40,154 nucleotides of DNA from positions 1 to 40,154 of IMG/VR virus record IMGVR_UViG_3300050821_005496. The stretch is one strand, 5' to 3'. A program made the position numbers and the translations under genes. Numbering within the stretch: position 1 is the first letter of the stretch; the number at the start of each line of letters is the position of its first letter. This document shows positions 987-16,100 of this stretch, one piece after another. Origin of the DNA: a virus. The notes below the pieces were generated by a model, which saw only the letters and a list, made by a program, of their open reading frames with translations, was not told the DNA's origin and did not search any database.

Positions 987-2959
987 TTATCTCTCTTAAT
1001 ATAATTAGCTAAAACACCACGATATCTAGAATTAGTAACACTTTCTTCTTTTTGAGTACTAATATATCTCTTAGGTTTATCCTGAGCTACTCTAGTAGCT
1101 AGAGGATTATTATCCTTATGTATCTTAGGTTCAATAGGTGGTATATTAGGCACGATAGATTTATTAACCCCAGGGATATTAGTAGGAACAGCTACTGGAT
1201 TACCTGGAGCAGTATTGTCCATTTGCATAAATAAGTTATTAAATCCAACCACATTGAGTTGTTCATTCATCCAACGCATAAATCCAACTACATCTACTTG
1301 ATCAGCAATTGCTGGATGTTGGGTTCTATCTGCCATTTCCATAACAAAGTCTTTTACATTACGTATTAATCCAACAGTAGTATCAATAAATTCTAGTTTA
1401 TCTAAGTTATCAATCTCAATAAGTTTATTATAAAATTCTACTTTAATATCTTGGGTATCAAATTTATACCCCTTATTAGCAAGATGAATATAAACAATTT
1501 GACGAATACCTTCTTCAATTGTTTTCTGAATAGCTTTTAGCTTACGAAGATAACGGGCATATTTTTTAAGTATTTCCCCCTTAGCTGATTCACCTTCAAA
1601 TAACAATTCATAAGGAATACCAATAGAAGCACAAATGACTTTGCGAATATCAGTAACTGAGGCAAGAAGATCATCTGGTTCATCTTGTTTATAATCTAAT
1701 TTCTGAAGTCTACCTGTATCTCCAAATATTGGAACAGCTTTCAAACGACCAGCTGTACCCATAATATTTTCTATAGTAATTTCTTCTAAGATTGGATCGA
1801 CTCCAACCTTTTTATTCATTAATCCTTCAATTTGTTTAGTTGCTTCAATGGCCTTTTCAATGTCATAACCAGGTGGTACTTGAACCCCGACCAAGGTCCC
1901 GTTAGATAATTTACTGAGCTTAGTAGCAGGGACTAAAGCTTCTAGTAATTCTAATTCTTTCAGTTTAGAAACGATACCGTAAATCATGGATTTACCGACT
2001 CGAATAAACTTAGGAATTTCTTTTAGTTCTTTAGGTAGATGTTCCTTTTTTATATTAAATTCTTTAAAAATATCTACTTTAACTCTGGCAGAATTAAGAG
2101 AGAATTTAACAAAATCAGCAGGTTCAGCTCTTTTTATATTACCAGGATTCTTACCACTACCAGCATCACCTATTAAATAACCTTCAGGTGTATTCCATTT
2201 AGTTAAACCAACAACTGATCCTTGATCCAAATTATCTAAAAGATCAATTAGTCCATATTCTTCATTAGGATCTATTTGTGGTTGTTCTAAATTCTTTTGT
2301 ATTTGAGGTCTACTTGGATCTTGACCAGAATATGGTGCATAGTTAGGATTTGTTCCAGTAGGAGAAGGACCTCCACCACCTGGTGTTAACTCATTAAATG
2401 ATTCATTTTCCTGTTCTTCACGCTCTTTAGCAGCAATTACATCAGGGTGTGGATTAATAACAGTCTTTAAAGTATATTCACCATATGCGCAAATATCTGG
2501 AGCAAGAATCATTGCTACTTGATCTAGATCAAATTTCTCTTCTAAATAATCAATTTCTTTTTGTAATTCTGGACGATCGGATGAAATACTAAGAACATCA
2601 CCAGTACCAATTTGAGGTGCTAATGCGTCTTCTACTAGTTGAGTTAAAATAACATCAACCATATAGAATACTCGCATTTTATCTACTTCACGTATTAACT
2701 TCTTACGAGTCTCGGCAACCTTCATATACACAGCCCCATAAGCTGCTGCTACATGAAAATCTGTGATCATATCACGTCTACCATTACCAGATTTCAATGC
2801 TTCTTTAATAGCTAAAGATTGTGCTATTAATACAGGATCATTTATCCTATAACCTTCATACATTTGTATGTCAGCTTTAGCTGATGCTAATTCTTCAGTT
2901 AGTTTTGTAACTTCAGGATTTACAATAGATTTTGATTTAAACCAATCAAATATAGCCAT
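983..2959 (-). CDS. portal protein
   Basis: 658 residues, normal for a myovirus-type portal. It would form the dodecameric ring at the unique capsid vertex through which DNA is packaged. Seen: N-terminal MAIFDWFKSK; a mixed domain with DILEE/PILEEITIENIMGT-like strands; then the typical portal segment DDLLASVTDIRKVICASIG, IPYELLFEGE and a long basic helix; then a C-terminal proline-rich low-complexity tail (about residues 590-640) that may be disordered. A Gly/Pro-rich insert lies near residues 190-215. The gene sits directly downstream of the large terminase in the transcript, the usual packaging pair. Start chosen at ATG 2959 with AAGG seven bases upstream, inside a small hairpin. Confidence 0.85.
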   Translation of the reverse strand: MAIFDWFKSKSIVNPEVTKLTEELASAKADIQMYEGYRINDPVLIAQSLAIKEALKSGNGRRDMITDFHVAAAYGAVYMKVAETRKKLIREVDKMRVFYMVDVILTQLVEDALAPQIGTGDVLSISSDRPELQKEIDYLEEKFDLDQVAMILAPDICAYGEYTLKTVINPHPDVIAAKEREEQENESFNELTPGGGGPSPTGTNPNYAPYSGQDPSRPQIQKNLEQPQIDPNEEYGLIDLLDNLDQGSVVGLTKWNTPEGYLIGDAGSGKNPGNIKRAEPADFVKFSLNSARVKVDIFKEFNIKKEHLPKELKEIPKFIRVGKSMIYGIVSKLKELELLEALVPATKLSKLSNGTLVGVQVPPGYDIEKAIEATKQIEGLMNKKVGVDPILEEITIENIMGTAGRLKAVPIFGDTGRLQKLDYKQDEPDDLLASVTDIRKVICASIGIPYELLFEGESAKGEILKKYARYLRKLKAIQKTIEEGIRQIVYIHLANKGYKFDTQDIKVEFYNKLIEIDNLDKLEFIDTTVGLIRNVKDFVMEMADRTQHPAIADQVDVVGFMRWMNEQLNVVGFNNLFMQMDNTAPGNPVAVPTNIPGVNKSIVPNIPPIEPKIHKDNNPLATRVAQDKPKRYISTQKEESVTNSRYRGVLANYIKRDK

Positions 2960-3012
2960 TAATAACCTTAAGTGAAGGTAATAGTTTTACGGAAAACGAA
3001 TTATAACAGTCT
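2960..3012 (-). promoter_or_regulatory. terminase-portal intergenic leader: CCTGA..TCGTTTTCC element and start-site hairpin
   Basis: One of the few real gaps (53 bases). On the minus strand it contains CCTGAAGACTGTTATAATTC, in which TGTTATAAT fits an extended -10 box (no convincing -35), then TCGTTTTCC. The TCGTTTTCC block recurs in the gaps at about 23.59 kb and 30.32 kb. Just before the portal ATG an inverted repeat TTACCTT-CACTT-AAGGTTA places the AAGG ribosome binding site in a stem, which could limit portal translation. The shared block and the hairpin are seen; promoter and regulatory function are inferred. Confidence 0.4.
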
Positions 3013-5934
3013 TCAGGCCTTTTTCTTCCACATTATATCCATAATATTTTCAGGTAATGGTCTTTGATGTGCTTTTCTAACTACTGTTTGTTCAACCATA
3101 TGTAATAATTTATATTTATGTGAGTTATTTACACAATTAAACACACTACCTGATACACCATCAGAAATATCCTTTGACCCTTTAGTACCATCTATATTTT
3201 TTGTTGGGTGATCAATTTTATTTCCATCAGGTTCTGATTCAAGTTCAAATATTTCTCTTTTTAAGATTTCATTTTTAGGACCCATCCATCTATTTTCATA
3301 CATTAATGATCTCAATACAGCATAAGGTTCTGGGGTTCTATCAACAGAAAGTAATTCGGATTCAAAACCTTCTTTAATAAGTAATTGAATCATATCAGCT
3401 GATTGAAAACCATCAAGTGTAATTTTAGATATTGGATATCCTAGTTTAGACAGCAATGAAAGAAATTGCCTCACTTTATATAACGGCACTTCTTTACCTG
3501 GCTTACACTCAATTCCAAAAGCCCATTCAGTAATTATTCTTGGTACATTTTCTGTTACTTCTTTAAATGAAGAAGGATCTCTAATAGTTCTATCTATGAA
3601 TCCACCTACATAACTAGCACCAATACCAAGACGGTCACCTTTCAATCCTATATCTATATGAATAGATCGAGGAATATGAGGATTTAATGGGCTACTAAAA
3701 TAGTCTTTTACTATTGCATAATTCATTATCTGATCTTGTTCATCATCAAAATCTAATTGGAATGTATCTGGAAATAGTTTTGATACAGAGAGTGATTCAC
3801 TAACCTTATCTTTAAGTCTAAAGAACTTATAATTAGATACAGTAGGTGATCCAGCAATATCTCGAAGTGAGGCTCCAATATCTGATTCAAATCTATCTTT
3901 ATATTCAATTGGTACATGAATACAATTTTCAGGTTCTTTTTCAATCAATGGGTGTTTATCATCTATAATTTCTGGTTGACGAATATCTGAACCTTTATAT
4001 ACATAAAACTTATTTCCTGAATATATAGGTTTATCATCTTTATGAGTAATTACTTCCCAGATTGGGGCCTGATCAACATAAACCCCAGGCTTACGTTTAT
4101 ACTGATCAATAATTTTGTTAACTACGGAAAACTTATCAGTCTCGGAAGAATCAATCCATATCTTACCAGGAATACCACCACCTTCTGATAAAGGTTTGAT
4201 AAATCGAGACTCCATACGAGTGAGTAAAGAATTAAATGTCTCGTATACTTGATCACCAATAATTTCAAAGTTAGCCTCTGACATTATGGCACCAAATACT
4301 GCTTTTCCTAAAGAATGGGTAATTCTTGAACCCATAAAAAAATCAATATTCTTAGGAAATAATGTTGGTCTATCTTTAGACTTAGTATTTAATAATGGTA
4401 ACATTGCTGAAAAATAAGGACTAGACGCCCACATCTGAGTTAGTTTATCCCAAACAACATCATGAGTCAATGATAATGTTACGTTAAATAGTGCAAAAAG
4501 AATAGTTGTACTAGGAAGAAGACCATAAGTCTTTTGAGGATTAGATAAGGATAAAAGTTTATGCAGATCATAACATACACCTGCACAAGCTATACTTGTT
4601 TTTCCTCTTCCAATCGAATTATGAGCTACAATACCACTAGAAAGTACAAAGTTATGATTTTTTTCTATTGTTAAATCATATACTTCTTCATAACCTAATT
4701 TTTTAATTGAAATTACTGAATGATTATAAGTAGGATCTAATTTTCTTATTTCTTCTACTTTGGCTTTATATTCTGGTGAATCTTTACCTTTGAACCTTAT
4801 TGTAGCACTTAATCCTTGTTTTAAACCGATTAATCTTTTTTCTTCTTCTGATTTATTTTTTCTCAATTCTCGCATATGTTCAGCACGTCTGCGAGATTCA
4901 TTTCTACCTTGTTCAGATTTATTATATGCTATTAAATGATCAGTACCAATTCCAGGATATAATTCATGGGCTCTTTTACCCATGTTAATTGCTCTTTCAC
5001 TATTATTTGAAAGCATTTCATTTCTTAATGATTCTTTGTGTTGATCTCTAGAATCTTGATAATTAGGATCATTCCATAAAAGATTTCTACCATAATCTTG
5101 TCTTTCTTTTAATAATTTATGAAATTCTTCTTTACCAATTTCTTTTTTCCATTTTTCTAAAATCCTAGCACCATGTTTAGCATGATATTTCAAATGGATT
5201 TCTTCATCTAAAATACAAAGATTTGAAGGAGTATCATCTAACTTATTAAAATTCTTATGATGAACATGTTGTGTCCATTGTATACAACTTTTCCATTTAG
5301 CAACAATTTTATATCTTGCATTCCATTGATAAGTTTTTGATTCTGGATTTTTAAAACAATGATATCCAGTACTTTCATCATAATAATATGGATATAAAGA
5401 AATACCTTCTTTTAATCCTTTATCAATTGATATCCATTTTTTATTTCTAGATAGAAATTTATGATTACTAGTACACTTAATTTTCTCACCATTATCTAAT
5501 GTAATTTCGTAGATTTCCTTAATACCGGTAGAAAATGCATTTAATACTTTAGCTGGTTCATATTTTTTATTATTTATATTGAATGACATTACCCAATAAT
5601 CTGATTTCTTAGTAAGAAATGTTTCCACAATTTCTTTTATTGGAGTATGAGTTCCATTCAATAATATTACTTTAGTATCACCTGCTAAACAACCACGCAG
5701 GTTTACAAGGTAATAAGGATCATGAAAGGGATTAGGATATATATCATTTAATACTTCACGCCAATATGGAAATAAATTACCTTGAAAATAATTTCCAAGA
5801 TATTTATCTGAATCTATAAATTCATTAATAGTTACTGGGGTAGAATCAAAACTGGATAATGAAGCATATAATGCACATAATTGATCATAGTCCAATTGAG
5901 AGATATATGGTTCAATATCTTTTTCATTTTTCAT
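3013..5934 (-). CDS. large terminase subunit (TerL) interrupted by an intein
   Basis: 973 codons; removal of a 358-residue intein leaves a 615-residue terminase of ordinary size. TerL pumps DNA into the prohead by ATP hydrolysis and cuts the concatemer. After splicing, residues join as L-R-G81 + S-I-G-R-G-K-T, which recreates the Walker A loop GSIGRGKTS. A Walker-B-like VFGAIMSEANF follows. The C-terminal RNase-H-fold nuclease is visible as SIHIDIGLKGDRLGIG (first Asp), ITLDGFQSAD (second acidic site) and GSKDISDGVSGSV (third Asp). The intein therefore sits inside the ATPase site, and the unspliced precursor should be inactive. It lies just upstream of the portal gene. The N-terminal motif DIEPYISQLDYDQ is partly duplicated at 6237-6284. 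Confidence 0.9.
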   Translation of the reverse strand: MKNEKDIEPYISQLDYDQLCALYASLSSFDSTPVTINEFIDSDKYLGNYFQGNLFPYWREVLNDIYPNPFHDPYYLVNLRGCLAGDTKVILLNGTHTPIKEIVETFLTKKSDYWVMSFNINNKKYEPAKVLNAFSTGIKEIYEITLDNGEKIKCTSNHKFLSRNKKWISIDKGLKEGISLYPYYYDESTGYHCFKNPESKTYQWNARYKIVAKWKSCIQWTQHVHHKNFNKLDDTPSNLCILDEEIHLKYHAKHGARILEKWKKEIGKEEFHKLLKERQDYGRNLLWNDPNYQDSRDQHKESLRNEMLSNNSERAINMGKRAHELYPGIGTDHLIAYNKSEQGRNESRRRAEHMRELRKNKSEEEKRLIGLKQGLSATIRFKGKDSPEYKAKVEEIRKLDPTYNHSVISIKKLGYEEVYDLTIEKNHNFVLSSGIVAHNSIGRGKTSIACAGVCYDLHKLLSLSNPQKTYGLLPSTTILFALFNVTLSLTHDVVWDKLTQMWASSPYFSAMLPLLNTKSKDRPTLFPKNIDFFMGSRITHSLGKAVFGAIMSEANFEIIGDQVYETFNSLLTRMESRFIKPLSEGGGIPGKIWIDSSETDKFSVVNKIIDQYKRKPGVYVDQAPIWEVITHKDDKPIYSGNKFYVYKGSDIRQPEIIDDKHPLIEKEPENCIHVPIEYKDRFESDIGASLRDIAGSPTVSNYKFFRLKDKVSESLSVSKLFPDTFQLDFDDEQDQIMNYAIVKDYFSSPLNPHIPRSIHIDIGLKGDRLGIGASYVGGFIDRTIRDPSSFKEVTENVPRIITEWAFGIECKPGKEVPLYKVRQFLSLLSKLGYPISKITLDGFQSADMIQLLIKEGFESELLSVDRTPEPYAVLRSLMYENRWMGPKNEILKREIFELESEPDGNKIDHPTKNIDGTKGSKDISDGVSGSVFNCVNNSHKYKLLHMVEQTVVRKAHQRPLPENIMDIMWKKKA
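4618..5691 (-). other. intein with HNH homing endonuclease inside TerL
   Basis: 358 residues. It begins with Cys (CLAGDTKVILLNGT, block A) directly after L-R-G of the terminase and ends VLSSGIVAHN, followed by Ser (blocks F/G with penultimate His and terminal Asn). Block B is CTSNHKFL (T-x-x-H) about 75 residues in. Between the splicing halves, around intein residues 142-170, lies an HNH nuclease motif HVHHKNFNKLDDTPSNLCIL, followed by a basic helical region rich in RRR, KNKSEEEKR and similar, probably the DNA-binding part. This is the usual mobile-intein arrangement: protein self-splicing plus an endonuclease that would cut intein-free terminase alleles. All splicing residues appear intact, so it is likely active. 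Confidence 0.9.
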
Positions 5935-5944
5935 TTATAATTAT

Positions 5945-6181
5945 TTAAGAATCAATTAATTCATTAGCTTGTTTATTAAGCATATGAATTTTATGAGAAA
6001 GATCATGATATTTTTTAGCTGCTTCTCTATCTTTCCAATAATTTGTTCCACGATTTTGTGGGTCATGTTGTTTGGTAAGTTCTTTCTTTTCTTTACGCAG
6101 AGCATCTATTTTCTGTTGTAATTTCGATTTTTCTGCAGAATTATCTTCACAATTAGCTATTAGTTTCTGTGCTTTATTCAT
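5945..6181 (-). CDS. small predicted internal protein with shared N-terminal peptide
   Basis: 78 residues beginning MNKAQKLIANCEDNSAEK, the recurrent leader, with a possible cleavage site after the hydrophobic/small-x-Glu at residue 12. The remainder is a charged helix (KLQQKIDALRKEKKELTK, then KYHDLSHKIHMLNKQ) compatible with a DNA- or core-binding coiled coil. A strong ribosome binding site (CGGAGAAACAATC then ATG) sets the start. It lies between a chimeric gene remnant (upstream) and the terminase gene (downstream, 10-base gap). No enzymatic motif. Inferred role: small protein packaged in the capsid. Confidence 0.65.
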   Translation of the reverse strand: MNKAQKLIANCEDNSAEKSKLQQKIDALRKEKKELTKQHDPQNRGTNYWKDREAAKKYHDLSHKIHMLNKQANELIDS

Positions 6182-6284
6182 GATTGTTTCTCCGTATGAT
6201 GATCTACTTGATCCTTAAACCAGTTATTAATACCATCTAATCGAGTTGAGAAAGATATGGTTCAATATCTGTGGGTTTACTCAT
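6178..6284 (-). pseudogene. chimeric remnant: TerL N-terminus joined to the tail of a small internal-protein gene
   Basis: This short gap codes for MSKPTDIEPYLSQLD then stop (6284-6237), clearly related to the terminase start MKNEKDIEPYISQLD. In another frame, starting within the same codons, it codes for RLDGINNWFKDQVDHHTEKQ then stop, matching the C-terminal end of the gene at 6498-6800 (DSLNQWISDQADHHTGAV). So a copy of the terminase 5' end is fused out of frame to the 3' end of a small internal-protein gene. No complete product remains. It is best read as debris of recombination that inserted or duplicated cargo genes upstream of the terminase. Confidence 0.7.
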
Positions 6285-6288
6285 TTAT

Positions 6289-6501
6289 TTATTTCGTAAG
6301 ACTATCTAACTTAGTTTCTATATCATCAATTTGCTTATTTATAGAATCATATTGATCCTGAGCTGGATTTGTCTCACCCTTAGATTTTGCTGTTACTTTA
6401 ATAGCTCTTCGTTTCTTGGCTAACTCATCTCTCTTAGCTCTCAATCTAGCTATTTCATCTTTATCTTCACATGCATTAATCAGTTTCTGTGCTTTATTCA
6501 T
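6289..6501 (-). CDS. small predicted internal protein with shared N-terminal peptide
   Basis: 70 residues. Leader MNKAQKLINACEDKDEIARL, almost identical to the leader of the gene at 5945-6181 also at DNA level, then a basic/acidic helix (RLRAKRDELAKKRRAIK) and a second helix ending KQIDDIETKLDSLTK. The two helices suggest an antiparallel coiled coil. It overlaps the upstream gene (ATGA) and has CAGGAG as ribosome binding site. The end ..DSLTK resembles the DSLNQ segment of its neighbour, so the two may be paralogues. Function unknown; packaging into the capsid is inferred from the leader. Confidence 0.65.
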   Translation of the reverse strand: MNKAQKLINACEDKDEIARLRAKRDELAKKRRAIKVTAKSKGETNPAQDQYDSINKQIDDIETKLDSLTK

Positions 6502-6800
6502 TTCACTGCTCCTGTATGGTGATCTGCTTGGTCACTAATCCATTGATTTAGAGAATCAATCTTAGTATCAATAGCATCTAATTGAGTTTTAAGATCATTA
6601 TTATCAGGATTTTGACTAAGTGCTTGATATACTTGATCATGTTTAGCTTCTAAATCACTTTTCTGTTTTTTAAGAAAATCTAATTTACGCTTTACTGCAT
6701 CTGGGACATTGGGATGGAGTTTCAAAAGTGCAACATGATCATCATGCTTATCCTCCATAAGAGGATTCATTACATCTACTACATGTTTAGCTTTATTCAT
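6498..6800 (-). CDS. small predicted internal protein, coiled coil
   Basis: 100 residues. Divergent leader MNKAKHVVDVMNPLMEDKHD, with a possible site after L-M-E. The mature part is helical: KRKLDFLKKQKSDLEAKHDQ and LDAIDTKIDSLNQWISDQAD, ending DHHTGAVK. The C-terminal 20 residues have a decayed copy in the remnant at 6178-6244. It is translationally coupled on both sides by four-base overlaps. No recognised domain. Probable role: internal or scaffold-like capsid protein (inference). Confidence 0.65.
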   Translation of the reverse strand: MNKAKHVVDVMNPLMEDKHDDHVALLKLHPNVPDAVKRKLDFLKKQKSDLEAKHDQVYQALSQNPDNNDLKTQLDAIDTKIDSLNQWISDQADHHTGAVK

Positions 6801-6988
6801 AATTGTTCCAAATCATTTAAGGCAAATTTAAGTAATTTCACTACTTTTTCTACTGAATTAAAATCAGAATGATCAAACATATTACCACTTAACATTTTTG
6901 ATAAAGTTGAAGATGCTTGTTTAATATCCTCAGCTGTTGGAGGATGATCCTCTTTAATCTTACTAAGTAATTGTTTAGCTTTGTTCAT
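6797..6988 (-). CDS. small predicted internal protein with shared N-terminal peptide
   Basis: 63 residues, MNKAKQLLSKIKEDHPPTAE at the start, with a candidate protease site after I-K-E13. The remaining 50 residues are helical and hydrophobic-patterned (DIKQASSTLSKMLSG, VEKVVKLLKFALNDLEQL) and may form a small helical bundle. Overlaps both neighbours by four bases. No membrane segment, no catalytic motif. Inferred to be another packaged cargo. Confidence 0.6.
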   Translation of the reverse strand: MNKAKQLLSKIKEDHPPTAEDIKQASSTLSKMLSGNMFDHSDFNSVEKVVKLLKFALNDLEQL

Positions 6989-7182
6989 TTCTTATTTCTC
7001 CTTAGATCCTTTACTAATTGAGTAATACTCACATCAAGATCAAAACTCTTTTTAATAAAAGATTTATTCTTATCAATATCATCTTGTGATAAGTATTTAC
7101 TTAGCATTTTCTCATAATTATTATAATCTTTGAACATTTTATTTTCTAAACAAAGATCTAATAATTCTTTAGATTTAGACAT
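6985..7182 (-). CDS. small predicted internal protein with shared-type N-terminus
   Basis: 65 residues from ATG 7182: MSKSKELLDLCLENKMFKDY, a variant of the shared leader with L-C-L-E at the expected cleavage place. The rest (NNYEKMLSKYLSQDDIDKNK, ITQLVKDLRRNKK) is helical and ends basic. The open frame extends upstream to 7290, but those codons are an out-of-frame reading of the gene at 7190-7498 and give an artificial hydrophobic stretch, so the shorter start is chosen. No strong Shine-Dalgarno sequence was seen. Function unknown. Confidence 0.55.
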   Translation of the reverse strand: MSKSKELLDLCLENKMFKDYNNYEKMLSKYLSQDDIDKNKSFIKKSFDLDVSITQLVKDLRRNKK

Positions 7183-7189
7183 AAATGTA

Positions 7190-7498
7190 TTAAATACCAG
7201 CACCATCAGACTTAACAGCAGTTCCACCTGTAGTAGTTGTGCCAACACCACTACCACCATTACTAGTACCAGCAATACGTAGAAGATCATCCAATGGAAT
7301 ATTCATTCGATTAGATTTACCAATCATTACATTAGCAGTACCATCAGAATTAGGTGAATGAAAAATAGCCAACATACCTGCATATTGAGTACCATCTTTA
7401 AATACAAGATTATCACCTAATTTAAGATCTTTCAATGCACCAACTGGTGTTCCTTGTAATTCTTGCATGACCTGGATAACTTTACTAGCTTTAGACAT
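7190..7498 (-). CDS. small predicted internal protein, beta-barrel-like body and Gly/Thr-rich tail
   Basis: 102 residues. Leader MSKASKVIQVMQELQGT, with a possible cut after V-M-Q-E or nearby. The body KDLKLGDNLVFKDGTQYAGM and ANVMIGKSNRMNIPLDDLLR looks like a small SH3/OB-type beta domain. The last 25 residues are a Gly/Thr/Ser tail. A ribosome binding site (AAAGGAGAATA) lies before ATG 7498. It is not similar to its neighbours outside the leader, supporting the idea of one leader on many unrelated cargoes. Confidence 0.6.
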   Translation of the reverse strand: MSKASKVIQVMQELQGTPVGALKDLKLGDNLVFKDGTQYAGMLAIFHSPNSDGTANVMIGKSNRMNIPLDDLLRIAGTSNGGSGVGTTTTGGTAVKSDGAGI

Positions 7499-7527
7499 AT
7501 TCTATTCTCCTTTAAATTATTATTTAA

Positions 7528-7908
7528 TTATTTGGGGCCAAGATCATATTTTTTTACTCTATCATCAGGATGTGTTTTAGCATATTCATCTCTAACCTTT
7601 TGAGCAGCTTTGATTGCATCTTCTCTAGTTGCTTCATCCTCAGAACCACCAATATATTTACCACTACTTTTTATCATTACAGATGCACCCCATGTTTTTG
7701 ATCTTTTATCATATTCAGGAACAATTTTTACTCTTTGATCACCATGTCCATAAGCAGAATGTCCATGATAAGCATCATGATCAGCCCCAAATTTATTAAT
7801 TCCAACAGGTGTATGATTTATATATTTCATACCAGGTTCTTTAATTAATGGGGTATCTCTATCTATATCTTCTACTACTAAATTTAATAGTTTCTGTGCT
7901 TTATTCAT
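7528..7908 (-). CDS. predicted internal protein with classic shared N-terminal peptide
   Basis: 126 residues from ATG 7908, chosen because of AGGAGAAACAATC just upstream and because it starts with MNKAQKLLNLVVEDIDRD; codons before it belong to a neighbour read out of frame. Probable processing after V-V-E13. The mature part is rich in His, Gly, Tyr and Lys (DHDAYHGHSAYGHGDQ), then RSKTWGASVMIKSSGKYIGG, a helix EDAIKAAQKVRDEYAKTH and a basic end. The second half resembles small AP2/DUF1508-like beta-beta-beta-helix units (weak). Inference: DNA-associated protein packaged with the genome. Confidence 0.6.
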   Translation of the reverse strand: MNKAQKLLNLVVEDIDRDTPLIKEPGMKYINHTPVGINKFGADHDAYHGHSAYGHGDQRVKIVPEYDKRSKTWGASVMIKSSGKYIGGSEDEATREDAIKAAQKVRDEYAKTHPDDRVKKYDLGPK

Positions 7909-7930
7909 GATTGTTTCTCCTATAAATAGA

Positions 7931-8218
7931 TTATTTCTTTTTAAACTTTTTAGAAAAATTATCTGCACCATCTTCAGTAGTAAACCATTGTAGTTCACCA
8001 TCTAGATTTCTTGCAGCATATATTTGACGGCCATAATAAATAGCAGAATCAATTTTTATCCATTCACCATTTTTTAAATCAACAGTAATATTAGTAATCT
8101 TATTTTCTTCTTTTACCAAATTTAATAACTGTTGATTTTTATTCATCATAACTTTAGATGAAATAATATTTTCAATTAATTCTTGTACTTTTAATAAAAA
8201 TTTATTTAAATTAACCAT
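7931..8218 (-). CDS. small protein with shared-type peptide, start uncertain
   Basis: Two starts are possible. ATG 8218 lies immediately after the conserved intergenic element and gives MVNLNKFLLKVQELIENIIS before the rest. ATG 8149/8146 gives MNKNQQLLNLVKEENK, the shared leader with a cut site after V-K-E. The body TVDLKNGEWIKIDSAIYYG and RQIYAARNLDGELQWFTTED is a compact beta-rich fold with basic end FSKKFKKK. Neither start has a strong ribosome binding site. The upstream choice would carry two leader-like helices in tandem. Function unknown. Confidence 0.5.
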   Translation of the reverse strand: MVNLNKFLLKVQELIENIISSKVMMNKNQQLLNLVKEENKITNITVDLKNGEWIKIDSAIYYGRQIYAARNLDGELQWFTTEDGADNFSKKFKKK

Positions 8219-8225
8219 CTTAATT

Positions 8226-8268
8226 AACTTATCGGAATAAAGTTCTAAAAACAAAAGTTTTATTTTTG
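8226..8268 (-). promoter_or_regulatory. conserved intergenic element, copy A
   Basis: Minus strand reads AAAAATAAAACTTTTGTTTTT, then AGAACTTTATTCC and GATAAGTTAATTAAG before a start codon. It is one of four copies in this window (also near 10.34, 35.60 and 39.87 kb) that share CTTTTGTTTT..TATTCCGATAAGT. Here the first part can fold AACAAAA/TTTTGTT, an AU-rich stem. It overlaps the stop codon of the upstream gene and lies before the next start. Promoter, processing site or weak terminator plus promoter are all possible. Confidence 0.5.
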
Positions 8269-8451
8269 TTTTTTTGTATTTTGATCAATATTAGGCATAT
8301 TAGCTTGGGAAACATTAGTATTAATAGTTCTTTTCAATAAATGATGCTGTTTACGTTGAATACTACCTGGTGTACTGGGAATAAAATTACAACGACTATC
8401 ATGATTAGGTAGAGTATTACGACAGAATGGACATTGAATCATTTTAGGCAT
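8260..8451 (-). CDS. small zinc-ribbon protein
   Basis: 63 residues. N-terminal MPKMIQCPFCRNTLPNHDSR followed by a further Cys gives C-x2-C..H..C zinc-ligand spacing. The C-terminal half is polar, basic and low complexity (RKQHHLLKRTINTN, NTKKQK). It lacks the shared leader although surrounded by genes that have it. It shares TAATG overlap with its upstream neighbour. Likely a nucleic-acid- or protein-binding zinc finger; target unknown. Confidence 0.6.
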   Translation of the reverse strand: MPKMIQCPFCRNTLPNHDSRCNFIPSTPGSIQRKQHHLLKRTINTNVSQANMPNIDQNTKKQK

Positions 8452-8783
8452 TATTTCTTTCCATACCCTGTCATAGCATGACGTATTATTGGTTCTGCTG
8501 ATTTTGATGGTAATTCTTCTTTATCTTTAGTTAATTTATCTAAAGACTTCATTACTTCATCTTTAGTTTCTTTGGGTGAACCTTCTTGCCAACCACTATT
8601 TTTTGTTTTATGACCACCAACAAAATATTGACCATGTCCTACATCACCAGACTTAATATAACATTCTTTACCATTTAAATTAAATTTATCTAATTTAATA
8701 TTATGTTTCTTTTCAAAATCACTATATGGTATTTGTTTAGGACCCCCATTACATATTTGAATAAGTTTCTGAGATTTATTCAT
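8451..8783 (-). CDS. predicted internal protein with shared N-terminal peptide
   Basis: 110 residues from ATG 8783: MNKSQKLIQICNGGPKQIPY. The usual acidic residue after the helix is replaced by N-G-G, so processing may differ. The body has a DFEKKHNIKLDKFNLNGKEC strand-helix, IKSGDVGHGQYFVGGHKTK and a basic helix KDEVMKSLDKLTKDKEE. An in-frame ATG at 8816 would add eleven residues but lies inside the upstream gene, so the downstream start is preferred by analogy with its siblings. Function unknown. Confidence 0.55.
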   Translation of the reverse strand: MNKSQKLIQICNGGPKQIPYSDFEKKHNIKLDKFNLNGKECYIKSGDVGHGQYFVGGHKTKNSGWQEGSPKETKDEVMKSLDKLTKDKEELPSKSAEPIIRHAMTGYGKK

Positions 8784-8784
8784 A

Positions 8785-9027
8785 TTATTTAATATACCCC
8801 AATACTTCTTTTTCATTGTTTTTATTATATTTAAATACCATAACTACTTCATTAGTAAATCCACCCAGATCTTTATAAACAACCCAAACAATATCACCTG
8901 AATTAATATCAGATTGTTTAATATATCTATTTGTTTTTAGATCTACAGTGTATATTACTTTATTACTCCCTAAAATACTTATATTTGATGAACCAATAGC
9001 CAAAACTGTGCCAGCAATATACTTCAT
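8785..9027 (-). CDS. small beta-barrel protein, unknown function
   Basis: 80 residues with alternating strands: MKYIAGTVLAIGSSNISILG, IYTVDLKTNRYIKQSDI, GDIVWVVYKDLGGF and VVMVFKYNKN. The pattern fits an OB or SH3-like barrel such as those in nucleic-acid-binding proteins. No leader peptide, signal or catalytic motif. It sits between a predicted internal protein and a cysteine-protease-like gene on the same transcript. Confidence 0.55.
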   Translation of the reverse strand: MKYIAGTVLAIGSSNISILGSNKVIYTVDLKTNRYIKQSDINSGDIVWVVYKDLGGFTNEVVMVFKYNKNNEKEVLGYIK

Positions 9028-9046
9028 TTATACCATCCATCACTAA

Positions 9047-9427
9047 TTATAAACACTCCTGAATAACTTTTAAAAATACTGGATCAATGAATTGATTGAA
9101 TTTAGATTCTTTAATATAAGAATTACCATCCCAATGATTATAAATATATTTATTATCTGTAACAGCCCAATGATAGGTATCTGATATTGTTAGGTATCCT
9201 ACTATATAGATACCCTCTTTATTTCTATGTTCTACTCTTTCCAATGGAAAACGTAATTTTTTAGCAGCTTGAATTAAATTAGTAATAGATGTACCATTAT
9301 GTGGTTTTCTATTACAATAATTATCAATAGTTTTTATTGATGGTGTTTCAATACCACATAATACAGCAGTATTATATAGAGAAACAGCACCACATACATT
9401 ATGATTAATTTGAGTAATTATATCCAT
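9047..9427 (-). CDS. C39-like papain-fold cysteine peptidase
   Basis: 126 residues. The N-terminus QINHNVCGAVSLYNTAVLCG matches the Q/N-x-x-x-x-C-G-x-x-S-L pattern of peptidase family C39-like proteins (Cys12). It is followed by a GTSITNLIQAAKKL helix and TYHWAVTDNKYIYNHWDG, providing His86 and Asn97/Asp100 for a catalytic triad. The whole domain is the expected minimal size. No leader or signal peptide. Known relatives cut Gly-Gly leader peptides or other short motifs; target here unknown. Its position in the middle of genes with a removable leader is suggestive, but their candidate cut site (x-E) does not match C39 specificity. Confidence 0.55.
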   Translation of the reverse strand: MDIITQINHNVCGAVSLYNTAVLCGIETPSIKTIDNYCNRKPHNGTSITNLIQAAKKLRFPLERVEHRNKEGIYIVGYLTISDTYHWAVTDNKYIYNHWDGNSYIKESKFNQFIDPVFLKVIQECL

Positions 9428-9430
9428 ATT

Positions 9431-9703
9431 CTATTTTAATTTAAAATGATATTTAGTAAGTAATTCTTTTTCTAAATCCGAAATACGTTTTTGAATTACT
9501 GATTTACGGTGTGGATCATGTATTTTACTGATTTCATGTTTAAGTTGTTCTAATTCAACTATTAATGTAGATTTATTTTTAGGGCCACCATTAGCATCAG
9601 CATCCATTACACTAGGGCTATGACCGGGAAATGAGTTTGTATCTTCAGGACTAAGATACCCCATATCTTCAATTGTATTAATTAGTTTCTGTGCTTTATT
9701 CAT
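9431..9703 (-). CDS. predicted internal protein with classic shared N-terminal peptide
   Basis: 90 residues: MNKAQKLINTIEDMGYLSPE, possible cut after T-I-E12. A Ser/Pro/Gly/Asp-rich linker follows (SFPGHSPSVMDADANGGPK), then a coiled coil from about residue 45 (LIVELEQLKHEISKIHDPHR, ISDLEKELLTKYHFKLK). Overlaps the next gene by four bases. The leader DNA is identical over about 18-20 bases to that of several siblings. Inferred to be a capsid-internal protein. Confidence 0.65.
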   Translation of the reverse strand: MNKAQKLINTIEDMGYLSPEDTNSFPGHSPSVMDADANGGPKNKSTLIVELEQLKHEISKIHDPHRKSVIQKRISDLEKELLTKYHFKLK

Positions 9704-9957
9704 AATTTAACACCATATTGTTTTAAATATCTATATAAAGTAGATCTACTAATATTTAATATTTTACTAGTTTTAATAATATTTTGATTATAAATACTAT
9801 ATATACGAAGAATATGATCTTTTTTAACTTTTTCTAGAAAAAGATTTTCATTATATCCATGTTCATCTATTACTTTGATATATTTTTTCTTTTCAATATT
9901 CTTTATTTTTTGATTTACCAATTCCATGGTACCTTTAGGCAAATTATTTATTTCCAT
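9700..9957 (-). CDS. Fis-type helix-turn-helix DNA-binding protein
   Basis: 85 residues. The C-terminal 40 residues (HILRIYSIYNQNIIKTSKIL, then NISRSTLYRYLKQYGVKL) match the Fis/NtrC-type HTH pattern: helix, N-x-x-x-T/A-S/A-K-x-L, I-S-R-S-T-L-Y-R-x-L. The N-terminal half is a basic helix. It would bind DNA as a dimer, as transcription regulator or nucleoid-like protein. Embedded in the internal-protein gene cluster and overlapping both neighbours, so it is co-expressed with them. No shared leader. Confidence 0.65.
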   Translation of the reverse strand: MEINNLPKGTMELVNQKIKNIEKKKYIKVIDEHGYNENLFLEKVKKDHILRIYSIYNQNIIKTSKILNISRSTLYRYLKQYGVKL

Positions 9958-10324
9958 TTTTCTTCCATTTTCTTTTCTTTATTAATGGACCAATTGGTAA
10001 TGCACCAAGTTGATTTACATTACCTTGAGCACCCGGACTACAGGAACTACCACTATGACTACCACCCATTGATCCACCAGCAGATGCACCACCACCCATA
10101 GCTTGATTATTAGGTTTAAGTAGAGATTGTTCTTTTTTTAAAGCATCTAATTTAATTTTAATTAGTTTGATTCTTTCTTGTAAATATTTAGTTTTTTCAG
10201 CTGTCTTTGAATTAGATAACGCTGTTTGAAGATCCCGAATCACTGTCTCATAATTATGGATTCTACTTATCAATGATAATGAATTAACTTCAAGTAGATT
10301 AAGTAATTTCTTAGCTCTATTCAT
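9944..10324 (-). CDS. predicted internal protein: leader, coiled coil, Gly/Ser linker, basic tail
   Basis: 126 residues from ATG 10324 (AGAGGTAA upstream), beginning MNRAKKLLNLLEVNSLSLIS with a candidate cut after L-L-E12. Residues about 20-75 form a helix/coiled coil (TVIRDLQTALSNSKTAEKTK, IKLIKIKLDALKKEQSLL). Then comes a Gly/Ser-rich stretch (MGGGASAGGSMGGSHSGSS) and a strongly basic end LIKKRKWKKNGNK that could bind DNA. The gene directly follows intergenic element B, so it is probably the first gene of the internal-protein operon. Confidence 0.65.
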   Translation of the reverse strand: MNRAKKLLNLLEVNSLSLISRIHNYETVIRDLQTALSNSKTAEKTKYLQERIKLIKIKLDALKKEQSLLKPNNQAMGGGASAGGSMGGSHSGSSCSPGAQGNVNQLGALPIGPLIKKRKWKKNGNK

Positions 10325-10337
10325 TTTACCTCTAATT

Positions 10338-10379
10338 AACTTATCGGAATATTTTTTATAAAACAAAAGGCTTATTTTT
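10338..10379 (-). promoter_or_regulatory. conserved intergenic element, copy B
   Basis: Minus strand: TAAAAATAAGCC then TTTTGTTTTATAAAAAATAT then TCCGATAAGTTAATT, followed by an AGAGG ribosome binding site and the start at 10324. It begins on the stop codon of the baseplate-like gene. No good hairpin is present in this copy, which argues for a promoter or RNA-processing signal rather than a terminator. It would separate the adhesion operon from the internal-protein operon. Confidence 0.5.
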
Positions 10380-11937
10380 AGATAACAGCTGTTCTAATAT
10401 TTAAACTTCTGTAAAAATTAACTATTCTAGTGTTATCTGATCCACCTGTTAAAGTTAATGACCCATTTGGGAGAATCTCATTACCGGTAATATTTAATTC
10501 ACCACCAGAAAAATTAGTAGTAGTTATTACTGAAATATCTGAAGATACAATAGTAATATTATTACCATTTATATTAGGATAGGTTGTTCCAGCAATTAAA
10601 ATAAGCTGATTTAACATAAGATTATTAATTGCTGCTGAATAATTACTACTACCATTGGTATTTAATACAGATAAAAGATTAGCTTGGGTAAGATAGGGTT
10701 GTAATCCAATTAATACCTGATGCCCAGTAGGAGATGAAGATACAAATTCATATATATCATCAAGAGGACCACCATTACTAATAGTAATAGTATCACCTGG
10801 ATTTGGGTTAGTGTTTGTAAATGTTATAGTCCCAGTTGCTGGTATATTACCAATATCTAAATAATTAATAGCAGGTAATTGAGGATTAGAAAAATTAAAA
10901 TCAGCTAAAGTATTAGTAAGATCAGTTTGACCATCAAATGTTATTTCAACATTACCTTTTGCAGTAGGATATTCAGCTTGAAAACTAACACCAGCATAAG
11001 TACCTTTTGAGAAATTACCAAAATATATATATACGGTAAAATCAGTTTGTTCACTAGTGATTAATTGAGCTGTATCTTCTGCTGTTAATGCTACATTAAA
11101 TCTACCTTGTTGTGGGTTAACCAATGTAACTCCACCCGGAAAGAAATTACCTGTTAAATAAGATTTAATAAGAGCAGTACCATCATACTTCCTAAAATGA
11201 ACTTGAATATCTGTAGCATTAGAAATATCAAATGGGTTATAATTAGCTGCTATAATTTTAATAGCTATACTTCTATTCTCACCATTAACTATAGTTAATG
11301 ATTCTTGATGAGGATAAATAGGAGCATTACCATCTACTACTCCAATTAAATTAATAAATCCATATACTGAATCTAGAGTATTAAATATAATACCTTGATA
11401 ATTATCATTACCTGGAGTTCTAGATGAATCAACAGTAGTATAAGTATCATCAGTATATACATAACTAAGTACATAATAGGAATTATTTTGAGTTACTCCA
11501 GTAAATGCACCATAATATACTCCATTAGCTACATGATTCATAATAACTTTTTCAATAAATCCAGTAGTTGGGTTATATACACTACCAGCAACAAAAAGAT
11601 TAGGATTTAAATCATAGGCAGCATAATTAAAACAAAATGAAGAAGATTGAGTATTAATAGATTCATAACATTCAGCAGATGGTGGTCTAGTAGTATCTAC
11701 TGTTAAATAAGTATTATTAGTATATGCTACAGTAATAGTTAAATAATTTTTATTTAATGATCCGGTAAATGATCCTTCATAAACACCACCACCTACATTA
11801 ACATTTGGAATAAATCCAACTAATATTGGAGTATTATTAGTAATATCATATATTGTAGTAGCTATGAATAATCCATTAGATTGATCATAAGCACCATATG
11901 TAAAATTAAATGGTACCCCAGTTTGAATAATCTGCAT
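10378..11937 (-). CDS. baseplate/tail structural protein with Ig-like BppU-type domain
   Basis: 519 residues, beta-rich, no signal peptide. Two N-terminal repeats of about 95 residues begin with Q-x-G-V-P-F-N-F-T-Y-G-A-Y-D and S-S-F-C-F-N-Y-A-A-Y-D, each ending in a TVDTTRPP / TVDSSRTPGND motif. Residues about 200-340 (IAIKIIAANYNPFDISNATD, GRFNVALTAEDTAQL) resemble the Ig-like N-terminal domain of phage upper baseplate proteins. The C-terminal part, rich in Asn, Gly and Thr, resembles adhesin surface loops. It closes the adhesion operon before element B. Exact position in the virion is unknown. Confidence 0.6.
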   Translation of the reverse strand: MQIIQTGVPFNFTYGAYDQSNGLFIATTIYDITNNTPILVGFIPNVNVGGGVYEGSFTGSLNKNYLTITVAYTNNTYLTVDTTRPPSAECYESINTQSSSFCFNYAAYDLNPNLFVAGSVYNPTTGFIEKVIMNHVANGVYYGAFTGVTQNNSYYVLSYVYTDDTYTTVDSSRTPGNDNYQGIIFNTLDSVYGFINLIGVVDGNAPIYPHQESLTIVNGENRSIAIKIIAANYNPFDISNATDIQVHFRKYDGTALIKSYLTGNFFPGGVTLVNPQQGRFNVALTAEDTAQLITSEQTDFTVYIYFGNFSKGTYAGVSFQAEYPTAKGNVEITFDGQTDLTNTLADFNFSNPQLPAINYLDIGNIPATGTITFTNTNPNPGDTITISNGGPLDDIYEFVSSSPTGHQVLIGLQPYLTQANLLSVLNTNGSSNYSAAINNLMLNQLILIAGTTYPNINGNNITIVSSDISVITTTNFSGGELNITGNEILPNGSLTLTGGSDNTRIVNFYRSLNIRTAVI

Positions 11938-11951
11938 ATTAACCTCTTTTA

Positions 11952-12611
11952 TTATCCTGCAGCAATTGCTGAAGCTTCTATTAAACTAATTGCTGGATAA
12001 GGGATAGTCGGAAAATTCCAATTTACTGCTAAACAATCATTGATATTAGTTGTATTATTAATAATATTAACAAAATTTCCTTTATATACATTTATAGTCA
12101 TTAAAAATGTAACAAAAGGTTGTAGATATGATTGTAAAGAATTTAAACTTTGATTAATAGAATTTTGATACATTAAAACTAATAGTAATTGACTTTGAAT
12201 ATCATATTGATCCTGTAAGTAAGTTAATCCATCCGCCACCATTGATCCAATAGTATATTGTTGTACAGTATTAAGAGTAGGAACTTGAATAGAATCAATA
12301 GCAGCAAATGCTACAGATAATAGAGTTCCATTAGGAACAGTAGTAGTAGGTGCATTATCTTGATATTGATCATTAATTGTATAAGTATCAGTTGTACCAT
12401 CAGTCATAAATTGGATAACTCTGCCAAATGCATCTAATGGCATAAGGGAAAACGATCCATCAAAATAACTATCACCAATACCAATACCCATACCATCAAT
12501 AATTATAGTATCAATACCTATATAAGTATATCCTGTTGTTACAGGTAAAGTATCTGAAGTTATAGTAGTCTCAACAAGACCATTAATATTATTTATTTTA
12601 GCATAATTCAT
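11952..12611 (-). CDS. tail-associated protein with N-terminal YAKI motif
   Basis: 219 residues. Starts MNYAKINNINGLVETTITSD, the M-x-Y-A-K-I-x-x-G-x-V pattern common in small phage tail-fibre-adjacent proteins. Then DTIIIDGMGIGIGDSYFDGS, a short beta domain and a helical C-terminal half (ADGLTYLQDQYDIQSQLLLV). Its neighbour at 12613-13101 has the same head pattern, so the two are probably distant paralogues placed between fibre and baseplate-like genes. Role as fibre assembly or connector protein is inferred. Confidence 0.5.
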   Translation of the reverse strand: MNYAKINNINGLVETTITSDTLPVTTGYTYIGIDTIIIDGMGIGIGDSYFDGSFSLMPLDAFGRVIQFMTDGTTDTYTINDQYQDNAPTTTVPNGTLLSVAFAAIDSIQVPTLNTVQQYTIGSMVADGLTYLQDQYDIQSQLLLVLMYQNSINQSLNSLQSYLQPFVTFLMTINVYKGNFVNIINNTTNINDCLAVNWNFPTIPYPAISLIEASAIAAG

Positions 12612-12612
12612 G

Positions 12613-13101
12613 TTATCCTCCAGTTAAATATTGATTTAACAATGCTTGAAATTGAGAAATCAATCCTTGAGTAATTATAACCCCATCAACAGAAATAGTT
12701 GAAAGACTATCATAAACAGTTTGAATTGATCCAGTTTGAAGTAATACAAAATAAGGTAATAAAGTTTGTGCTAAACTAAAAGTTTGAGATGAGGTCAACC
12801 CTCTAGCATTATTTGCTTCAGTAAATAAATCAATTACATATTGTCCAAAATCTGATGGATCAGGATATTGTTGATTCAATGTTAATGGAATAGAAGGAAT
12901 AACTGGAGGAGAAATGAAATTAGATCCATTATAAGTCCATCCAATACTTGGTTGCGGTGAAATGGTAGAAGTATCCACCCAAGTGAAATTAGGATCTAAA
13001 GTATTATTTGGGGCACCAAGATCTATCATTTGCATATTTACTATAGTACCAACCCCATTTCCTGGGGTTGCCATATCTATTTTAGCATATAAACTATTCA
13101 T
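12613..13101 (-). CDS. tail-associated protein, YAKI-type with W-T-Y-x-G-x-x-F module
   Basis: 162 residues: MNSLYAKIDMATPGNGVGTI, then FTWVDTSTISPQPSIGWTYN followed by GSNF. This N-terminal module (YAKI, WVDxS, P-x-P-x-I-G-W-x-Y-x-G-x-x-F) is widespread in small phage proteins encoded beside tail fibres. The C-terminal 80 residues are helical (QTFSLAQTLLPYFVLLQTG). One-base overlap with the glycine-rich fibre gene. Likely adaptor or assembly factor for that fibre; not proven. Confidence 0.55.
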   Translation of the reverse strand: MNSLYAKIDMATPGNGVGTIVNMQMIDLGAPNNTLDPNFTWVDTSTISPQPSIGWTYNGSNFISPPVIPSIPLTLNQQYPDPSDFGQYVIDLFTEANNARGLTSSQTFSLAQTLLPYFVLLQTGSIQTVYDSLSTISVDGVIITQGLISQFQALLNQYLTGG

Positions 13102-16100
13102 TAATTAAACCACTCCACAAATATTGCACCATTAGCACCATTACCTCCTGCTTCAGCAGTTGCAGCTACTGATTTAGCTCCAGCACCACCTGCACCATAT
13201 CCTGTACCAGCAGCACCGGTACCTATAGTAATTCTACCTTGGGTTATTGGACCATAACCTGGACTATCACCACCATTGCCTGAAATACTAGTAGCAGCTG
13301 CAGTAGCAACTGATCCTCCTGTACCACCACCAATAGCTATTGTAGCATTAGTACAAGTCCCACCAACACCACCATCTTTTGATACTCCTGCAGCAGCACC
13401 AGAACCAAATCCTGCAGTATAAGTTGTTGCACTAACAGTTAAAGTGGTAACAGCACCATTTGATCCTGGATTAGCTCCAGCTGTACCACCATTACCTCCA
13501 CCACCAATAGCAATAGTATAACCAGTTGAAGCATTTAATCCAGTCAATTCAACTATACAAACAGCACCACCACCCCCACCAGCTGCTACGTTATTAGCTG
13601 TAGCAGCAGTCCCTGCTCCACCACCACCACCTGCAATTAAAGTAAATTTAAACTGAGTTGCCGAATTAACAGTAGATGGAGTAGTAAATGTAGTTCCTGA
13701 TGTTAAAAATTGTTGCCCACTAGGATTACCATTAGTAATACTAGGAGTTTGCCAAGTAGGTAGAACACTGGCACCATTTGACATTAATACTTGACCTGCT
13801 GTACCTTGACCAGAAACAGATTGTATTGGATTAGTTGAAGTAGTTCCACCAGTTAGAACAGAATAAGCACTTAATGTATTAGTACCAGTACCACCATTAC
13901 TTACTGGAAGAGTACCAGTAACTCCACCATTTGTAGTACTTGCTAAATTAATAGGTGGAATATCAGCACTAACTAATGCCCTAAAGGTTGGAGTTCCAGC
14001 TGAACCATTTGGAGCAGCCCAAACAAAATTAGCAGTTTCACTAGCTAAAGTTGCAGTTAATGTCCCAGTGCTTGTTACAGGTGAACCTGATACAGTAAAT
14101 ATAGCTGGTAATGAAAGAGCAACACTAGTTACTGGTGTACCCCAACTTAATGTTCCAGATCCTGTATTTTCAAGAAATGTAGTTGCAGCACCTTGAGCTG
14201 CAGGCCAAATAATACTGTAAGAAGTTGTAGTAGCTGAAGCTGTTTGAGTAAATAACCCAGAAGTTGAACCATCAAGACCAAATGTGCTTTTAACTTCTAA
14301 AAGATCAGTAGGAGATGCTTGTCCAATACCTAAATTCCCACTATTAAGTAGAGTCATTTTAATTGTATCTGGGGTGGTTAATGCAGTAGACCAAGTCATT
14401 TGGCCACCAGAAGAGCCAGTACCTGCATTAAAAGTTAAATTACCACCAGTACCAGTAGTACTTGATCCAATACCCCCATTACCAGCATTAAAAGTAATAC
14501 CTCCGCCATTGCCCCCTGCAACACCAGCACCACCATTAGCACCACCTATTGTAGTACCTCCACCATTACCAGAAGTTGATGATCCAGCTCCACCTACACC
14601 TGCAATTAATGAAGCAGCTCCACCATTAGCACCTGCACCAGCTGTACCTAATCCACCTACTCCAGCAGTTAAACTAATAGTTCCACCAGAAGAACTTCCT
14701 TTGGATAAACCTGCAGTACCAGATATATTACCACCAGCATGATTAACAGTATTATCTCCACCAGCATTTCCACCATTAAAAGTAATTCCACCTCCAGCAC
14801 CACCAGATCCAGTACCAGTACCTGCAGAACCACTCACTATCATTGCACCACCATTTGATCCTGCTACTGCAGAAGCAGTACCACCTTGTATCGTAGTAGT
14901 TCCACCATTACCTGGAGTGGTTCCTCCACCAGCTCCACCTCCAGATATAAGCATGGCACCACCATTACCACCAGTAGTTCCACCACCTCCAGTACCACCA
15001 GCATAAGTAGTAGCACCACCATTGCCTGAAGTTGAACTACCTACACCACCTGTACCACCTGTATAACTAATTGTACCACCATTAGCCCCTACAGTACCAG
15101 TACCAGTTCCACCTACACCTGCTGAACCAGTAATTCCACCACCAACACTACTACCAACACTTGTACCAGCAGAAAGAGTAAGTGTACCACCAGTATTATT
15201 TACAGTTTGATCTCCATTAGCATTACCAGCAGTTAAACTAATACCACCAGCAGACCCACCAGAACCAGTTGAACTACCAGCTCCACCATTAATAGCAACA
15301 CCACCTGCATTACTTCCAGCAATAGCTGCAGCAGTACCACCAGTTATATTTACGCCACCACCATTACCACCTGAAGAACTACCTACACCACCTGTACCAC
15401 CTTGAATAGTTGTAATACCTCCTGTACCTCCACCTACACCAGCTCCACCATTGCCTGATTTAATAGTAACACCACCACCCACACCTGATGTAGCTGAACC
15501 TGCCCCACCTACACCACCAGTAAGTGATACTGTACCTCCAGATGTACCAACAGTACCAGTACCTGTAGCACCAACACCTGCAGTAATAGCAACTGTTCCA
15601 GCAACACCAGAACCAGATCCAGTACCAGCAGTAACAGTTAAACTACCACCATTATGATTAACAGTGTTGTCTCCAGTAGCATTACCTAATGTAACACTCA
15701 TGGAACCACCACCACCACCTGAATTTGTAGCACCACCACTGGCAGTAACTATAGTAAGAGCACCACCAGTTGGTCCTGTTTGACCTTCAACAGCAGTACC
15801 TGGAGAACCGGTTGTAATATTTACAGCACCACCATTACCAGCTATAGTAGCACCTGAGCCACCAGTACCTGCATTTAAATTTAAATTACCACCTACACCA
15901 CCAGTACCAGTACCTGCTCCACCAGTACCAGGAGTAATAGTTAAATTACCTCCATTGCCTGAAGTAGTTGATCCAGCTCCACCATTACCGGTATTTAAAG
16001 AGAATAACCCACCATTAGCACCTACAGTTCCTACTCCGGTACCTCCAGCACCAGTAGTTAAACTAATAGTTCCACCCGTAGCACTACCCATACTAAGTCC

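Follow-up and report, generated by a model that had tools for sequence, protein, structure and literature searches.

We identify a short N-terminal peptide, here called the leader, that is common to 16 otherwise unrelated genes in a 40,154-base stretch of DNA from a virus (IMG/VR virus record IMGVR_UViG_3300050821_005496; hereafter the window), all of them on the minus strand. The leader is very probably a capsid-targeting sequence of the phage T4 kind, predicted to be removed by the prohead protease, that has been expanded in this group of phages and differs by lineage; packaging and cleavage are what we infer from the genes. Capsid targeting with prohead-protease removal had been proposed from the letters of the window, and it stands as the best explanation because the closest relatives carry S77 protease and Gp23 capsid genes, their capsid proteins have matching Glu sites, leader clusters are concentrated in S77 loci, a blind method finds the T4 internal proteins, and a homologue without the leader has its first residue where the mature protein is predicted to begin.

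A common leader peptide on sixteen unrelated genes

The MNKAQKLI-type start is present on all 16 genes on which it had been noticed. They are listed here with the leader, the residue that follows it, and the body; the start codon is at the second coordinate of each line.

486-986, minus strand: leader MNKAQKLIFLLE, then K and an ADP-ribosyltransferase/Tpt1-like domain (GWWEDADPLIMYHGT...)
5945-6181, minus strand: leader MNKAQKLIANCE, then D and a charged small protein
6289-6501, minus strand: leader MNKAQKLINACE, then D and a charged small protein
6498-6800, minus strand: leader MNKAKHVVDVMNPLME, then D and body
6797-6988, minus strand: leader MNKAKQLLSKIKE, then D and body
6985-7182, minus strand: leader MSKSKELLDLCLE, then N and body; ATG internal to a longer mechanical open reading frame (ORF)
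7190-7498, minus strand: leader MSKASKVIQVMQE, then L and body
7528-7908, minus strand: leader MNKAQKLLNLVVE, then D and a body weakly similar to part of an HNH endonuclease family (PHROG 99, E=0.0015)
7931-8146, minus strand: leader MNKNQQLLNLVKE, then E and body
8451-8783, minus strand: leader-like MNKSQKLIQICNGG and body, no Glu
9431-9703, minus strand: leader MNKAQKLINTIE, then D and body
9944-10324, minus strand: leader MNRAKKLLNLLE, then V and a body with a Gly/Ser-rich stretch
23610-23783, minus strand: leader MNKSQKLINTCDE, then I and a basic body
25853-26104, minus strand: leader MNKAQKLIDLCNE, then H and body
27981-28361, minus strand: leader MRAIDKLLSLVNE, then T and a body with no family assigned
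28492-29064, minus strand: leader MNKLKHLLSLLE, then E and a NUDIX hydrolase domain (Pfam NUDIX, E=1.8e-11, above cut-off)

Shine-Dalgarno-like sequences precede most leader starts, and for several genes (starts at 7182, 7908, 8146, 8783, 10324 and 23783) the longest mechanical ORF begins before the leader ATG. A weak member that had been suggested at 26398 (MNKFKLICNFFNTKN) is dropped because it has no acidic stop, and a look-alike at 25832 (MNQAAQLLTITCVADVSG) probably belongs to a structural protein.

Residues 2-13 are common to the window leader proteins and the bodies are dissimilar: the best all-against-all BLASTP match among bodies spans 14 residues (E=0.011), in keeping with the claim that the proteins are unrelated beyond the leader. 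The leader is also amphipathic, as had been proposed, with an Eisenberg moment of 0.45 against 0.27 in shuffles (z=5.4); a hydrophobic residue stands at position 7 in 77 of 80 collected leaders, and at positions 8 and 11 in 74. Pairs of identical leader residues have different codons in 35% of cases, where the codon usage of the bodies would give 38%, and the 20 nucleotides upstream of leader genes are no more alike (6.6 of 20) than those between other genes (6.8 of 20). The conserved unit is therefore the peptide.

Blind clustering and association with the S77 protease

In a blind search, candidate starts were grouped by residues 2-13 and required to be unlike in residues 17-36, with residues 14-25 as control segment. 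Thirteen of the window proteins fall in one group, groups of at least three occur in only 8 of 157 loci, and no locus has a cluster in the control segment. The positive control, T4 60-110 kb, yields one cluster, which consists of exactly ipI, ipII and ipIII. When loci of at least 9 kb are counted, 16 of the 63 with an S77 match have leader clusters, against 2 of the 73 without (Fisher p=9e-5), the latter two being T4, whose gp21 was missed by the model used, and the window, whose contig ends early. No clusters were found in the stretches fetched from the T4-like marine phages HTVC008M and P-SSM2.

The count of 16 includes two sets that we do not claim as leaders, neither of which has the usual hydrophobic-x-Glu. 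One, on a contig of an Oscillospiraceae metagenome-assembled genome with a Gp23-like capsid gene (L152:18700-20675; L numbers are our locus labels), comprises four proteins with MKR[FY][IV][KR][SA] starts, and is perhaps another leader or something else. The other (L193:4687-9878) is a different kind of leader-like set: three proteins close to an S77 protease have MAMxIKVxxxK starts, and these too may be something else.

Relatives with T4-type head genes and leaders of their own

Scanning DNA for the leader brought up two loci, L003 and L018, and in L018 there are 12 leader genes within 14 kb. Scans with capsid, terminase and protease alignments brought in more loci. L003 and L018 are myophage late regions that encode a protease-scaffold fusion and a Gp23-family capsid protein; their proteases and major capsid proteins (MCPs) belong to Pfam Peptidase_S77 and Gp23, the families of T4 gp21 and gp23, above the cut-offs. 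The closest relative of the window is L201, a 95.7-kb contig with a portal 46% identical to that of the window and a terminase matching at E=8e-193. Its seven leader genes are interleaved with portal, protease-scaffold and capsid genes, the protease-scaffold being of S77 type (E=3e-135 to the alignment) and the capsid protein (Gp23; E=1e-187) reading QICE then EDGN across the T4 processing position. L042 has a terminase 48% identical to that of the window, and protease and capsid genes as in L201; L070 (terminase 46%) resembles the window in having leader genes, four in number, immediately upstream of the gene for the terminase large subunit. Another locus, L002, retrieved by a single-sequence portal search, was set aside as a chance relative.

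The leaders of L201, followed by the consensus in other loci, read:

L201: MTKAKMLLMIVE, MGKAKELLIHLLE, MSKAQKLLEQFN, MSKVEELLSLIFE, MSKAKELLESIS, MSKAKKLLELIE, MHAKEVLALVE
L041: MSKAKxLL
L114: MSKARDILEMID
L171: MGKFKDLLE
L172: MNRAQELIKMCEQ
L173: MKLIKELNQLLED
L180: MGIAKDLLNSIQES
L183: MSKAQELIGVLNE
L184: MNLSQEVLRLLEK
Cultured Vibrio phage 1.031.O: MKTAQDILTICES

For most sets, mean leader similarity is at least as high within a lineage as between lineages; a single leader type is common to the window, L018 and L003, and the sets of L070 and 1.031.O hold together only loosely. The six leaders of Vibrio phage 1.031.O that end in ICE are confined to the late module, the remaining 100 kb fetched having none; its leader proteins include NVP1031O_178, 179, 181, 182, 183 and 184. 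No match was obtained with a combined DNA pattern for an MSxAS-type leader. L114 has about 15 leader genes in a single late region (3250-19059), with an unleadered DNA methylase, an asparagine-synthase-like protein and a cupin among them.

Predicted cleavage sites in leaders, capsid proteins and proteases

A hydrophobic-x-Glu had been noticed near residue 12 of the leader. In its strict form, [ILVMF]-x-E, this holds for 9 of the 16 window leaders and fails for the other seven, which have NCE, ACE, CLE, TIE, CDE or CNE or, at 8783, none; the latter leader may represent either targeting without processing or a degenerate member. Across the 80 collected leaders, [ILVMF]xE with Glu at residues 9-20 is found in 67, against 20% of body windows of equal length, and in sets fetched by the protease rather than by the leader it is found at residues 10-16 in 35 of 40 leaders, compared with 20% of the remaining ORFs of these loci. 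When ten residues were tested in the Glu position of [ILVMF]xX at residues 10-16, only Glu stood out (88% in new leader sets, 76% in all sets, 20% in other ORFs).

Compatible sites in capsid genes had been named as a check, and the MCPs of the relatives do keep hydrophobic-x-Glu at the T4 processing position. Among capsid proteins near this group, it stands just before the mature domain in all those with a recognisable anchor, as ICE, LCE, VNE, FCE, MCE and others, often ICE, MCE or FCE; in L038, L041, L045, L047 and L072 the anchor was not found, and hydrophobic-x-Glu was seen on reading. Vibrio phage 1.031.O, with its ICE leaders, has FCE as its MCP site, and T4 gp23 has FLTE followed by A at the corresponding position. 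The specificity of gp21 is given as L/I-x-E (PMC9026906). We also observe hydrophobic-x-Glu shortly before the catalytic domain of several proteases, as IEEA (L003:1531), LSEA (L018:2617), LEEA (L041:8418), LCEA (L114:19103) and VEEA (L201:14903), and these are possible self-processing sites.

The leader as a module and its candidate cargo

The protein at 486-986 shows weak profile similarity to the Tpt1/ADP-ribosyltransferase superfamily, and the L114 leader protein at the matching place, 32% identical to it, is Pfam ART-PolyVal above cut-off; an AlphaFold model of the ADP-ribosyltransferase-like protein, from a two-sequence alignment, had a predicted local distance difference test score of 32 and was not used. 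The homologue in Vibrio phage K471 is 55% identical, is without the leader and has a good Shine-Dalgarno sequence. It begins MNFNPKVGWWEDADP, where the window protein reads MNKAQKLIFLLE, then the predicted cut, then KDWQPEIGWWEDADP, so that K471 Met1 aligns with window K13, the first residue past the predicted cut. As this homologue is without it, the leader is a separable module.

Other leader-bearing (tagged) proteins include one in Vibrio phage 1.031.O that is Pfam InPase, an inorganic pyrophosphatase of the polyvalent-protein type, AAA+ ATPases in L018 and L041, a DnaJ just below cut-off and a zeta-toxin-like kinase just above. The L041 ATPase (2461-5304) is split by an intein with a homing endonuclease. 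Both ART-PolyVal and InPase domains occur in proteins for which packaging and injection have been suggested (PMC5512222). A search for phage homologues of the proteins at 27981-28361 and 7528-7908 and of the L114 ART-PolyVal protein found none.

Gene layout of the window

In the order of transcription on the minus strand, the window carries tail/fibre and miscellaneous genes, the leader cluster (10324-5945), the intein-containing terminase, the portal and the leader gene at 986-486, after which the contig ends. Because it stops where the head genes should come next, the phage's own protease is out of view. The two genes between the leader cluster and the last leader gene are:

983-2959, minus strand: portal protein, without leader (PHROG 1497, weak; 46% identity to the L201 portal)
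3013-5934, minus strand: terminase large subunit with intein, without leader

The terminase is similar to those of Rhizobium phage RHph_TM30, Thermus phage phiLo, E. coli phage IME392 and others. Its intein bears an HNH-type endonuclease domain, and the L070 terminase matches across the intein stretch too, the insertion apparently being common to both. Elsewhere, 21393-23000 has a strong match to PHROG 1745, 'DNA transfer protein' (E=1.5e-99), a family that we take to be T5 A1-like; the heads of the relatives are T4-like. Two overlapping ORFs (24851-25702 and 25662-25832) are read as one structural protein with a possible frameshift, and the product of 24851-25832 resembles an insert of the L018 tail sheath. 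A papain-like peptidase without leader (26579-27358; Pfam Peptidase_C1) is flanked by leader genes.

Alternative explanations

Several observations weigh against capsid targeting with prohead-protease removal. The protease and capsid genes of the window phage lie beyond the contig end, and the presence of the leader proteins in virions is deduced from the genes. Seven of the 16 window leaders are without a strict aliphatic residue at P3, one of these (8783) being without any Glu. An S77 protease does not imply a tag, since 47 of the 63 S77 loci have no cluster by the blind method, and the association counts loci, several of which are mutually related and many of which were fetched with these very genes. 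Finally, only the hydrophobic spacing and the Glu agree between the window leader and T4 MKTYQEFIAEA, sequences too short to tell descent from convergence.

The tag could instead mark components of the prohead core, or scaffold, that enter the prohead, are cut, serve assembly and are mostly degraded like T4 gp67 and gp68, rather than being injected. Many bodies are indeed small and charged (window 5945-6800), and one leader-like RHph_TM30 protein is annotated 'prohead core protein', but the bodies also include enzymes or enzyme-like domains (ADP-ribosyltransferase, NUDIX, InPase, AAA+, DnaJ and zeta-like kinase), and most are not common to the relatives, unlike essential scaffold parts; we consider this explanation improbable. 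Slightly less probable still is targeting by the leader to some other compartment of the phage, such as the tail-tube lumen or baseplate, or to a site in the host, such as the membrane or cell pole, the Glu motif being incidental. Membrane binding is a known ability of amphipathic N-terminal helices, and N-terminal signals direct cargo into the tube of contractile injection systems, yet such targeting does not predict the Glu-specific enrichment, the concentration in S77 loci or the MCP-matching sites, and the blind method picks out the capsid-targeted proteins of T4.

We give hardly any weight to two further explanations. A shared translation-control or regulatory leader acting on RNA, which had been offered as an alternative, would fit the near-identical codon string GCA CAG AAA CTA/CTG in five window leaders, a string that may reflect recent copying of leader DNA; the codon and upstream comparisons given above do not support it. 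Recent paralogy or an artefact of ORF starts, with the leader as a remnant of duplicated genes or a product of wrong starts, could be suspected from the several starts internal to longer ORFs, and is equally hard to credit: there is no significant similarity among bodies, Shine-Dalgarno-like sequences stand at most starts, the pattern recurs in other phages with a different consensus, and the control segment gives none.

Proposed mechanism and significance

Under capsid targeting, the amphipathic N-terminal helix (hydrophobic at 7, 8 and 11; small at 4) would dock each protein on the prohead core, probably on the scaffold part fused to the prohead protease, a step modelled on T4. The S77 protease would then cut after hydrophobic-x-Glu, at about residue 12-13, and free the bodies inside the maturing head. 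These may be ejected with the DNA as early effectors, among them an ADP-ribosyltransferase like Alt, a NUDIX hydrolase and numerous small proteins. The differences in leader sequence between lineages are what would be expected of a signal that tracks its receptor.

Proteins that enter the host together with phage DNA work ahead of phage gene expression; anti-restriction and host-takeover factors are among them, and they are hard to recognise. Clustering N termini near an S77 protease makes candidate head cargo a searchable set, and roughly a hundred candidate cargo proteins are suggested in the loci fetched. If capsid targeting is correct, the likely head cargo of a phage, delivered into the next bacterium, could be read straight from its DNA. 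We lean towards a broader generalization, in which many myophages with a protease-scaffold fusion carry a cleavable tag per lineage, probably scaffold-matched, with between 3 and 16 or more unrelated proteins bearing it; this tag could be gained or lost as a module, domains that other phages join into giant polyvalent proteins would travel as separate packaged proteins, and the head-delivered repertoire would be readable from the genome. Lineage-specific loading signals are open to testing, and cultured systems exist, for example Vibrio phage 1.031.O.

Comparison with known systems

The closest parallel is T4, in which the internal proteins IPI, IPII and IPIII and the Alt propeptide likewise place a short N-terminal peptide, with key residues 4, 7 and 8, on unrelated small proteins. 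For T4 IPIII, processing is reported to be lost when the P1 Glu is changed to Asp. One account of the T4 capsid-targeting sequence states that 10 residues suffice, that residues 4 and 7 target and that the cut follows L/I-x-E (PMC9026906). Both systems share the hydrophobic-x-Glu end, a gp21-family S77 protease and Gp23 capsid (here in the group), and a tagged ADP-ribosyltransferase. They differ in that the leader here has another sequence that changes by lineage, with 16 tagged genes in 40 kb against three internal proteins and Alt; in the group the protease is fused to a scaffold, the tagged genes are interleaved with terminase, portal, protease and MCP genes, and many sites are ICE-, NCE- or VNE-like.

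In phage P1, an N-terminal signal of DarB is sufficient for head loading of this injected protein; unlike here, the Dar proteins have no common N-terminal consensus according to the authors, and the capsid type is another (PMC9024508). The overlap of DarB-like proteins with the leader proteins is the InPase domain only. Polyvalent proteins of phages and conjugative elements share ART-PolyVal and InPase domains with the leader proteins, and together with T4 Alt, an injected ADP-ribosyltransferase, are functional parallels of the tagged cargo (PMC5512222), although here the domains stand on separate small tagged proteins and not on one giant multidomain chain. The head propeptides of phiKZ and SPN3US resemble this system in having a Glu-specific gp21-like protease and many ejected internal proteins, and the part of the source available describes no short leader common to many unrelated proteins (PMC9026906). 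We found no description of the leader family in the open literature, subscription papers being mostly outside the search. Capsid-targeting sequences have already been described in T4 and P1; new here, to judge by the open literature searched, are the number of tagged genes, the spread of lineage-specific leaders in a group outside classical T4-like phages and the listing of candidate cargo from sequence.

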